From positions 24,153 to 88,152 of the IMG/VR virus record IMGVR_UViG_3300030104_004631: 64,000 nucleotides of DNA. The stretch is one strand, 5' to 3'. This stretch comes from a virus. Below are positions 39,126 to 48,286 of the stretch, in pieces (the stretch's first letter is position 1; every line of letters starts with the position of its first letter). The translations under genes and the position numbers were made by a program. The notes below the pieces were generated by a model. It saw only the letters and a program-made list of their open reading frames with translations, was not told where the DNA came from and made no database searches.

Positions 39126-41375
39126 ATGGCAGCAAATCAATCATCGCCAGGTGTAGTGATACAGGAGAGAGACCTGACTACTATTACCACGCTCTCTACC
39201 GCAAACATTGGCGTAATTGCGGCACCATTTGAGCAAGGTCCAGTTGAAGAAATAGTAAATATTTCTAATGAGAGAAATCTTACAGACGTATTTGGGAAAC
39301 CAAATGACAATAACTATGAGTACTGGTATACTGCTGCTCAGTTTCTTTCATATGGTGGTGTCCTTAAGACAGTTCGTGTAACTTCAACTTCATTGAAGAA
39401 TGGTGTTGACACTGGAACTGCACCTCTAATCAAGAATTTTCAAGACTACGAAACAAACTACGAGACTGCAAACAATAACTGGACTTGGGCATCAAAAACT
39501 CCTGGTACTAAAGGTAATTCAATCGGTATATTTGTAACAGACGCTGGTGCTGATCAGATCGCTGTTCTCCCTGCTCCTGGTTCAGGTAACGAACATGAAT
39601 TTGTTGCTGATGCTGCATTAACTGCTGCTTCTGGTGCTGCTGGTAAAGTCTTCAAGTATAGCATCGTTCTTACTGTAGACACTGTTGTTGGTGATTTTAC
39701 TCCTGGTACTGCTACTACAATTAGTATTGGTGGTTCTGATGAGTCAGTAAATGTTCTCGCATGGGATCCTGCTAATAAGAAATTAGAAATTGGTCTTCCT
39801 TCTGGTGGTGTTACTGGTATTCTTTCAGATAACCAAGTAATTACTCAGGGAACAAATACCGCTGCTATCGATACTACCATTGAGCGTCGTTTGTATATTG
39901 GTCTTAATAAGGACAGTATTAATTTTGCTGCTGCTGATGTTGTTGCTGACACAAACTCTACTAACGTAACTGTTACTTCAGTTCGTGGTGAGTATGATGA
40001 GCGTGAGTATCTACCTGGTGTAAAGTGGGTAAGCGTTGCTCCTCGTCCTGGCACTTCTAAGTTTGCGACAGAGGTAGGTGGATTCCGTGATGAACTCCAT
40101 ATCGTTGTTGTTGACATTGATGGTAAAATCACTGGTACGACTGGTGCTTTACTTGAGCGTTTTATAGGTGTTTCTAAAGCATCTGATGCTAAAACTTCTG
40201 TTGGCGAAACAAACTACTATGTTAATGTTCTGAAGGCACGCTCCGAGTATATCTACTGGGGTGAGCATGAGTTAGGAGTATTCAACGCAGGTGCATCTGG
40301 TTCTACTGGTACTTGGGGTGTTTCTGCTTCTGCTAGACAGTTTAACCTTCTACGTTCTGCTGCTGGATCTACTGATTATCCTGCTGGACGTACAACTCTT
40401 GGTTCTAAGAACAACGCAACATTCTACTACAGACTTGCTGACGGTGCTGACTATGCTTCTTCTGGTGGTGTATATTCTGTAAGCAATACTGATGTAACCA
40501 CTGCATACGAACTACTTGAAGATCCTGAGTCACAGACAGTTGATTATATCTTGACTGGTCCTTCTGGTGCTACAGATGCTGAGGCACTTGCTAAAGTTAC
40601 TGCTTTAACAAATATTGTTGAAGAGCGTAGAGATTGCATGTTGTTTGTATCTCCTCGTCGTGGTAACATTATTGGTATAAGTAACGCAAATACAATCACT
40701 AATAACATTATTAATTTCTTTGATACGTTACCTTCTAGTTCTTACGTTTCATTTGATTCTGGTTACAAGTATATTTACGATAAGTATAATGATGTTTATC
40801 GTTACGTTCCTTGTAATGGTGACGTTGCTGGACTTTGCTTACAGACTACGGAAATTTCAGAACCTTGGTTCTCACCTGCTGGTTTCCAACGTGGTATCTT
40901 GAGAAATGCAATCAAACTTGCATATACTCCTAACAAGTCGCAACGTGATCGCTTGTATGCTGCTCGTGTTAATCCTATTGTTTCCTTCCCTGGTCAAGGT
41001 GTGGTTCTATATGGTGATAAGACTGCACAAGGATTTGCATCCGCATTTGATAGAATCAACGTTCGTCGTTTGTTCCTAACAATCGAAAGAGTAATCTCTG
41101 GTGCTGCTAAATCACAACTCTTTGAGCAAAATGATGCTGCACAACGTTCATTGTTCCTCAATATTGTTGAACCTTATCTTCGTGAAGTTCAAGGTCGTCG
41201 TGGTGTAACTGACTTCTTAGTTAAGTGTGACGATGACAACAACCCTTCTGAGGCAGTTGATCGTGGAGAGTTCTACGCAGAAATCTTCGTGAAACCAACA
41301 CGTACAATTAACTACATTACTCTTACATTTACAGCAACCAGAAGTGGTGTTGCATTTACTGAAGTAGCTAGTTAA
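39126..41375 (+). CDS. gp18: Contractile tail sheath protein gp18
   Basis: 749 residues (T4: 659). The start 'SSPGVVIQERDLTTITTLST' and the conserved C-terminal core ('SPAGFQRGILRNAIKLAYTP', then 'FLVKCDDDNNPSEAVDRGEF') identify the sheath protein that surrounds the tube and contracts at infection. Residues about 150-245 are Gly/Thr rich and include a GxFTPGTxxxIxxG/'VLAWDPANKKLEI' segment like the module in gp8 and gp14, an apparent surface insertion. A dedicated late promoter precedes it and a terminator lies 92 nt after the stop. Confidence 0.95.
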   Translation: MAANQSSPGVVIQERDLTTITTLSTANIGVIAAPFEQGPVEEIVNISNERNLTDVFGKPNDNNYEYWYTAAQFLSYGGVLKTVRVTSTSLKNGVDTGTAPLIKNFQDYETNYETANNNWTWASKTPGTKGNSIGIFVTDAGADQIAVLPAPGSGNEHEFVADAALTAASGAAGKVFKYSIVLTVDTVVGDFTPGTATTISIGGSDESVNVLAWDPANKKLEIGLPSGGVTGILSDNQVITQGTNTAAIDTTIERRLYIGLNKDSINFAAADVVADTNSTNVTVTSVRGEYDEREYLPGVKWVSVAPRPGTSKFATEVGGFRDELHIVVVDIDGKITGTTGALLERFIGVSKASDAKTSVGETNYYVNVLKARSEYIYWGEHELGVFNAGASGSTGTWGVSASARQFNLLRSAAGSTDYPAGRTTLGSKNNATFYYRLADGADYASSGGVYSVSNTDVTTAYELLEDPESQTVDYILTGPSGATDAEALAKVTALTNIVEERRDCMLFVSPRRGNIIGISNANTITNNIINFFDTLPSSSYVSFDSGYKYIYDKYNDVYRYVPCNGDVAGLCLQTTEISEPWFSPAGFQRGILRNAIKLAYTPNKSQRDRLYAARVNPIVSFPGQGVVLYGDKTAQGFASAFDRINVRRLFLTIERVISGAAKSQLFEQNDAAQRSLFLNIVEPYLREVQGRRGVTDFLVKCDDDNNPSEAVDRGEFYAEIFVKPTRTINYITLTFTATRSGVAFTEVAS

Positions 41376-47396: not shown

Positions 47397-48194
47397 ATGA
47401 CAAGTCTAATTGACCCAAGAAAATACTCCGATGCAGTTGACCTATTAAGGTCATTTTTTTTGTCTAAAAATTTTCTAGAAGTCCATACTCAGAATCGTTT
47501 AAGTATACTTGCTGCCTGTGAAGATCCAGAAACAGTAGCAACATATAACTACGGTGGTAATATATGGCCACTACCACAGACAGGACAGATGTGGTTAGAA
47601 CATGAATTACTTTCTAACCCCAAAGAAGAGGGGTTTTTTTGTGTCTCAACATCATACAGAGCAGAACCTAATCCAGTACCAGGCAGACATGAAACTATAT
47701 TCCCCATGTTTGAATTTGAAATGAAGGGAGGTGTTGAAGAACTTAAATTAATGGAGATAGAATTGTGCGAATGGTTAGGTCTACCATTAGACAAAGGAAA
47801 TATACAGACTTATGATGATTGGACTAATCAATTTAACACTAAAGAACTAGACCATGATCACGAAGAAAAGATTGGTCGTGGTATGATTACTGACTTCCCT
47901 GAGTGGACATCGCCTTTCTGGAACATGGCACGTAATGAAGATGGTACCAGTAAGAAGATTGATGTTATATTAAATGGTATGGAAACTATCGGTAGTGCTG
48001 AACGTAGTACTGATAAAGATCAGATGCGTGATACATTCTATACTATATCAGATGGACAGTATGCTCAACTGATTATTGATTTGTTTGGTAGAAGTAGGGT
48101 AGAAGCAGAACTTGAAAAGTTCTTATCATTTGACTTCTTCCCTAGATCTGGTGGAGGCATCGGAATGACTCGTATAATATCAGCCCTTGAATAG
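47397..48194 (+). CDS. Stand-alone class II aminoacyl-tRNA-synthetase-like catalytic domain (AsnRS/AspRS/AsnA-related)
   Basis: 265 residues. It shows class II motifs in order: motif 1-like 'FFLSKNFLEVHTQN' (20-33); 'QTGQMWLEHELL' (61-72), like the S/TGQ substrate loop of AsnRS/AspRS; motif 2 'SYRAEPNPVPGRHETIFPMF' (86-105) continuing EFE, with Arg88, Glu90, Arg97-His98 and Glu106/108; and motif 3 'GGGIGMTRI' (252-260, Arg259). No anticodon-binding OB domain is present at either end, so it is about half the length of AsnRS. Asparagine synthetase A and archaeal AsnRS-like paralogues share this fold, so the product may not be Asn-tRNA. A tRNA gene begins 7 nt after the stop. Two terminator-like hairpins lie inside the coding region. 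No clear ribosome binding site is seen. Confidence 0.78.
   Translation: MTSLIDPRKYSDAVDLLRSFFLSKNFLEVHTQNRLSILAACEDPETVATYNYGGNIWPLPQTGQMWLEHELLSNPKEEGFFCVSTSYRAEPNPVPGRHETIFPMFEFEMKGGVEELKLMEIELCEWLGLPLDKGNIQTYDDWTNQFNTKELDHDHEEKIGRGMITDFPEWTSPFWNMARNEDGTSKKIDVILNGMETIGSAERSTDKDQMRDTFYTISDGQYAQLIIDLFGRSRVEAELEKFLSFDFFPRSGGGIGMTRIISALE
47438..47461 (+). terminator. Terminator-like hairpin inside the synthetase-like gene (first)
   Basis: TGACC/GGTCA stem, TATTAA loop, then eight T, at codons ~14-22. The reading frame stays open through it. Only 5 bp of stem, so strength is uncertain. Confidence 0.45.
47616..47640 (+). terminator. Terminator-like hairpin inside the synthetase-like gene (second)
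   Basis: AACCCC/GGGGTT stem, 8-nt loop, followed by seven T, at codons ~74-82 just before motif 2. The frame stays open. Confidence 0.5.
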
Positions 48195-48201
48195 GGCTCT
48201 T

Positions 48202-48286
48202 TGTGAGGTGGCGAAACGGTAAACGCTCTAGTCTGTTTAACTAGTGTCTCTGGCGGGACTTGTAGGTTCGACTCCTACCCTCACAG
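48202..48286 (+). tRNA. tRNA with GTT anticodon (Asn codons) and long variable arm
   Basis: Full cloverleaf: acceptor TGTGAGG/CCTCACA (48202-48208, 48279-48285) with discriminator G at 48286; D stem GCG/CGC with GG in the loop; anticodon stem CTAGT/ACTAG; loop CTGTTTA giving anticodon GTT at 48235-48237; T arm GTAGG-TTCGACT-CCTAC. The variable region is 17 nt (48245-48261) with a stem GTCTC/GGGAC, which is class II architecture (Leu, Ser, bacterial Tyr), not expected for tRNA-Asn. Position 37 is T, where a purine is normal. CCA is not encoded. Asn is the decoding assignment by geometry; amino-acid identity is uncertain (Ser also has G73 and a long arm). Confidence 0.82.

Follow-up and report, generated by a model that had tools for sequence, protein, structure and literature searches.

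Which enzyme charges a tRNA that joins an asparagine anticodon to a long-armed body, and with which amino acid, is the question raised by positions 48202-48286 (+ strand) of the window, the 64,000-nucleotide (64-kb) stretch of viral DNA analysed here. ARAGORN called these positions as tRNA-Asn (gtt), and the Rfam tRNA model matched them with 52.8 bits (gathering score 29, E 1.7e-8). The type II tRNA has the acceptor stem UGUGAGG/CCUCACA (U1-A72) followed by the discriminator G73, the D stem GCG/CGC, the anticodon stem CUAGU/ACUAG and the T stem GUAGG/CCUAC. The anticodon loop CUGUUUA (48233-48239, +) reads C32 U33 G34 U35 U36 U37 A38, with G34-U36 at 48235-48237 and U37 at 48238, and the 17-nt variable arm (UGUCUCUGGCGGGACUU; 48245-48261, +) forms a 5-bp stem (GUCUC/GGGAC) with two unpaired bases 5′ of the T stem. 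All arms are paired, and CCA is absent from the gene. The initial annotation of a GUU tRNA with a 17-nt variable arm, G73 and U37 was confirmed by the sequence, ARAGORN and Rfam. No second tRNA was found by ARAGORN within the window, which over the 16 kb around the tRNA shows 94% identity to Prochlorococcus phage P-SSM7 and, judged from its sequence, comes from a T4-like cyanophage.

A candidate charging enzyme is encoded immediately upstream by a 265-aa ORF (47397-48194, +), the stop codon of which is separated from the tRNA by a 7-nt spacer (48195-48201, +). The product matches PF00152 (50.6 bits) and an unnamed PHROG family (phrog_29758), and its homologues in P-SSM2, P-SSM5 and P-SSM7 are annotated 'tRNA ligase'. 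The whole ORF is accounted for by a predicted class II aminoacyl-tRNA synthetase catalytic core of the AsnRS/AspRS type, aligning to positions 233-528 of human AsnRS, and no N-terminal OB-fold anticodon-binding domain was found in it. A structural search using the predicted model (pLDDT 92.5) returned AsnRS at the top (Z 25.9 over 242 residues, the match being limited to the catalytic domain), followed by AspRS (Z 24.9) and archaeal asparagine synthetase A (AS-A; Z 23.6) of the same superfamily; due to the closeness of these Z-scores, the fold alone cannot settle the substrate. The active-site stretch LPQTGQMWLE aligns with LTQSSQLYLE of AsnRS and LAQSPQLYKQ of AspRS, and the invariant Glu68 of the phage enzyme corresponds to Glu in AsnRS (QLYLE) and to Lys in AspRS (QLYKQ), at a position which we take to be the site separating Asn from Asp recognition. 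Arg88, Arg203, Arg259 and most of the GGGIG motif are invariant or nearly so across 44 enzyme sequences, and the enzyme is under purifying selection (dN/dS 0.04-0.15). Full-length AsnRS (class IIb; PDB 8h53, 1x54, 9sh8) thus shares with residues 1-265 the catalytic fold, the class II motifs and Glu68, whereas the OB-fold is present only in AsnRS, identity is about 20%, and the phage enzyme scores 18 bits against the NCBIfam asnS cut-off of 342.6. The archaeal asparagine synthetase A (AS-AR; PDB 3p8t, 3reu), the product of which is free asparagine, is likewise a stand-alone AsnRS-like core of similar size with no anticodon domain; it differs in not being tRNA-linked and in sharing only about 18% identity, and the phage enzyme falls far under the NCBIfam asparagine synthetase A cut-off (17 vs 389 bits).

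In order to assess the linkage of the two genes, viral contigs were scanned with the 265-aa protein; the best 80 of at least 600 matches were fetched and, together with the window and cultured phages, make up the cyanophage-group set, in which tRNAs were sought without an anticodon filter. A type II GUU tRNA lies just 3′ of the enzyme gene in 78/78 loci with enough downstream sequence (near-identical copies included; 50 distinct tRNAs), the loci outside this count being six truncated upstream of or within the tRNA and two huge phages. The gap between stop codon and tRNA is 7-12 nt throughout, consistent with co-transcription of the pair. GUU, U37, G73 and U1-A72 are invariant in the 78 tRNAs, position 33 is C instead of U in nine of them, and the variable arm measures 14-29 nt. 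The pairing of all arms claimed for the window tRNA holds across the 50 distinct homologues, with 99.9% of paired cells kept, both-side changes at 18 of 24 pairs, and a covariation score reached by 0/500 shuffles; strong covariation is seen in each helix, including the variable arm, where the second pair changes from U-A to A-U. The elbow elements, in the T loop and the D-loop GG, are preserved.

Cultured phage records contain the enzyme-tRNA pair only in P-SSM2, P-SSM5 and P-SSM7. A tRNA-Asn is annotated directly 3′ of the enzyme gene in P-SSM7 and P-SSM5. The P-SSM2 tRNA-Asn is annotated at 164094-164179 of AY939844.2 (8825-8910 of locus L082), about 2.0 kb from its real position (162083-162168) adjoining PSSM2_198, apparently due to stale coordinates. 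The GUU tRNA is the sole tRNA of P-SSM2, P-SSM5 and two other phage contigs (150-179 kb). In the window and in P-SSM7 the pair is flanked by gp23 and gp3, and it precedes a lipase gene in the different neighbourhood of P-SSM2 and P-SSM5; in S-CAM22, which matches 85% of the 16-kb stretch, neither gene is present at the gp23-gp3 site. The pair is an accessory module, and the presence of the two genes together in well over 100 related viral sequences makes them look like a private tRNA-charging unit. Two further features of this genome region were observed. P-SSM7-type phages carry, close to the class II-shaped tRNA-Asn, a class I-shaped tRNA-Leu(UAA) of 73 nt with a short variable loop (L002 2871-2943; L005 2870-2942), which is missing from the window together with its neighbours tRNA-Ile and tRNA-Arg. 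The tail sheath ORF of the window (39126-41375) encodes 749 aa against 496 positions of the phrog_23 profile, suggesting an inserted domain.

A second marine phage group, with enzyme identity of 66-70%, has a type II GUU tRNA just downstream of the enzyme in 76/80 loci. The scan of this group demanded GUU and a pyrimidine at position 33 and was passed by 71 loci; reading the other nine by hand and with an RNA model brought in five more tRNAs, four of them complete and one truncated at the end of its contig. Neither approach detected a nearby tRNA of this kind in the remaining four loci; two of the four lie on long contigs that contain only a tRNA-Arg. G73 and U1-A72 are invariant here too, as is GUU, though the latter was required by the scan. 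CCA is encoded in 71/71 of these tRNAs, their variable arms span 11-37 nt, and U occupies position 37 in 57 of them, A in nine and C in five. One member tRNA (L258 4900-4997) has G33 in place of U33. One contig of this group occurs twice in the data, as part of a Flavobacteriaceae MAG bin (L092) and among the viral contigs (L214).

The identity elements of the tRNA point in more than one direction. In bacteria, long variable arms belong to the Leu, Ser, Tyr and Sec tRNAs (in part, PMC9976931). The window tRNA matches tRNA-Leu at 60/90 columns (E. coli Leu(CAG)) and 62/87 (Leu(CAA) of a 735-kb phage), tRNA-Ser at 51-54 of 89-91 and tRNA-Asn at 46/88 in a comparison with a small set of reference tRNAs, and its D arm and the two bases left unpaired 3′ of the variable stem are tRNA-Leu-like, not Ser-like; on these features the body most resembles tRNA-Leu. 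The Leu anticodon, A73 and G1-C72 of those tRNA-Leu are replaced by GUU, G73 and U1-A72. The BLAST match in the 735-kb phage (H16) was considered as a relative of the GUU tRNA and rejected, as it is an ordinary tRNA-Leu. The bacterial Asn determinants are G73, G34, U35, U36 and A37 (PMC9976931), all of which except A37 are kept in the cyanophage-group tRNAs. E. coli asnT shares GUU, G73 and U1-A72 with the phage tRNA but is class I, 73 nt without CCA, and has A37, whereas the phage tRNA has a paired long arm, U37 and a Leu-like body. As A37 is a listed Asn determinant, a tRNA with U37 may be a poor substrate for host AsnRS, which would explain the accompanying enzyme.

The long arm and G73 had been read in the initial annotation as a SerRS-type signal, through which host SerRS would place Ser at Asn codons. 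Part of that signal is present, the window tRNA carrying G2-C71, R4-Y69, C11-G24 and G30-C40 alongside G73 and the large arm, all listed Ser elements, and replacement of A73 by G73 has been shown to switch Leu identity to Ser (PMC9976931). However, G73 does not point to serine in particular, since G73 and GUU are bacterial Asn identity elements. A72 is found in every module tRNA where SerRS would read C72, a listed determinant, and the D arm and arm base are of Leu type. G2-C71 is not kept across the module, as 46/71 second-group tRNAs have C2-G71, an anti-SerRS element of E. coli tRNA-Leu (PMC9976931). Serine charging would also leave the linked AsnRS-like gene without a reason, and we regard it as very unlikely.

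The reading that we consider probable is that a dedicated mini-AsnRS charges this Leu-derived tRNA with asparagine, yielding host-independent Asn-tRNA. The tRNA and the upstream ORF would form a two-gene charging module, in which a minimal AsnRS-like class II synthetase lacking the OB-fold anticodon-binding domain puts asparagine on the type II GUU tRNA. The enzyme would recognise its tRNA by the invariant U1-A72 and G73 of the acceptor end, and probably also by the Leu-like shape and long arm; the strict co-occurrence, the invariant Asn-type acceptor end and the missing anticodon domain fit this mode of recognition. The tRNA may have arisen from a tRNA-Leu-type body that acquired the anticodon and acceptor end of tRNA-Asn. 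Conservation of GUU alongside an enzyme with no anticodon domain points to decoding of AAC/AAU codons, at which the charged tRNA would supply Asn during infection without host tRNA-Asn or host AsnRS. A dedicated phage enzyme had been offered initially as the alternative to SerRS, and the class II core 7 nt upstream and the conserved pair support it well at the level of sequence.

Relatives of the enzyme also occur without a linked tRNA. They are found in the huge phages LR756501 (47% identity) and LR756508 (45%), in many MAGs and genomes at 50-62% identity, mostly of Patescibacteria and Bacteroidota, and as stand-alone genes in Pasteurella atlantica and Aureispira. Loci L135, L099, L106 and others within L091-L170 represent a family of small AsnRS-like proteins that stand alone and are widespread in cellular genomes. 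In the enzyme tree, a single supported clade takes in 13/14 tRNA-linked rows, the exception being L102 (a Chloroflexi MAG contig), and the tRNA-linked label needs at least three changes; on this tree the tRNA link is characteristic of the phage clade and not universal in the enzyme family. Given these relatives at 45-62% identity, the family may have begun with a function other than charging a type II GUU tRNA. A search with RNA model R1, which mainly detects tRNA-Leu, revealed no type II GUU tRNA elsewhere in the huge phages among the matches listed, and none in the long contigs. Brevundimonas phage Kikimora (ON529857.1; L088 3995-4078) has an 84-nt type II tRNA-Asn with A37 and encoded CCA, and no PF00152 enzyme was found in this phage; phage Gurke has a tRNA-Asn matching that of Kikimora by BLAST. 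The enzyme-free tRNA of Kikimora and the four second-group loci without a tRNA count against the charging module.

These cases bear on the alternative in which host AsnRS charges the tRNA as an ordinary tRNA-Asn and the adjacent enzyme is an AS-A-like free asparagine synthetase that raises the Asn supply. Archaeal AS-A has the same kind of AsnRS-like core, stand-alone homologues exist in cells, GUU and G73 are elements read by host AsnRS, and Kikimora has its tRNA without the enzyme. Such a division of labour does not account for an adjacency that is near-universal in two phage groups and at differing genomic sites, for the loss of A37 in most module tRNAs, or for the low NCBIfam asparagine synthetase A score. 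AsnB is already present in many of the genomes that encode stand-alone homologues; full AsnRS, AsnB or GatB is often encoded elsewhere in them, and no consistent pattern of loss of AsnRS, GatB or AsnB was seen there. We consider free asparagine synthesis unlikely.

The anticodon loop counts against charging for decoding by the mini-AsnRS, as U37 and the occasional C33 or G33 are unfavourable for normal decoding. We know of no ordinary elongator tRNA that combines U37 with a lost U33. The charged tRNA might accordingly serve mainly outside ribosomal decoding, as a decoy or an aminoacyl donor, a use with which U37 in 78/78 cyanophage-group tRNAs and the departures from U33 would agree. Against this, GUU is strictly conserved despite the missing anticodon domain of the enzyme, the elbow elements of the T and D loops are preserved, and some second-group tRNAs have A37; a role apart from decoding therefore appears distinctly improbable.

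If the mini-AsnRS does charge the tRNA, its altered anticodon loop would be an advantage whenever cleavage or shortage affects host tRNA-Asn. A more far-reaching proposal, which we put forward tentatively and hold to be possible but somewhat doubtful, is a natural virus-borne orthogonal pair of an anticodon-blind mini-AsnRS and a Leu-derived type II tRNA-Asn, in which the loop (U37, C33, G33), freed from host AsnRS, drifts and escapes anticodon nucleases, so that Asn codons are still read as host tRNA-Asn is being destroyed. The nuclease PrrC needs a modified A37 in tRNA-Lys. We know of no such anticodon nuclease in the hosts of these phages, and U37 as an escape from host anticodon nucleases is suggestive only. 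The PARIS system has E. coli tRNA-Asn, in which positions 36-39 read UAAU, as a minor target, and rescue from PARIS involves T5 tRNA-Asn variants (PMC12409363). UAAU is present at 36-39 in 0/78 cyanophage-group and 5/71 second-group tRNAs; the five led us to abandon the idea that UAAU is generally avoided. Phage tRNAs described as escaping nucleases (van den Berg 2023, PMC10264068; T5 tRNA-Asn against PARIS, PMC12409363) resemble the module tRNA in being phage-borne with an altered anticodon loop; the accessible text of these reports mentions neither a type II class nor a synthetase partner of their own. Huge-phage synthetases have been proposed to charge phage tRNA variants (Al-Shayeb 2020, PMC7162821), as suggested here for the module enzyme, with no linked one-to-one pair or mini-AsnRS described in the accessible text of that report.

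No published description of the tRNA-enzyme pair was found in the open-access literature searched. Relative to known phage synthetases and tRNAs, what is new here is the unusual tRNA class and the domain-minimal enzyme; if the reading is true, a long-armed tRNA-Asn served by such a synthetase would solve the problem of tRNA identity in a new way. With its single-domain synthetase dedicated to one unusual tRNA, the module would also be attractive as a natural orthogonal pair. The analysis suggests a likely function for a phage protein family without a name (at least 600 matches in viral contigs), and, because several phages keep the GUU tRNA as their only tRNA, it would offer a concrete reason for phage tRNA carriage, namely host-independent charging rather than codon supplementation.
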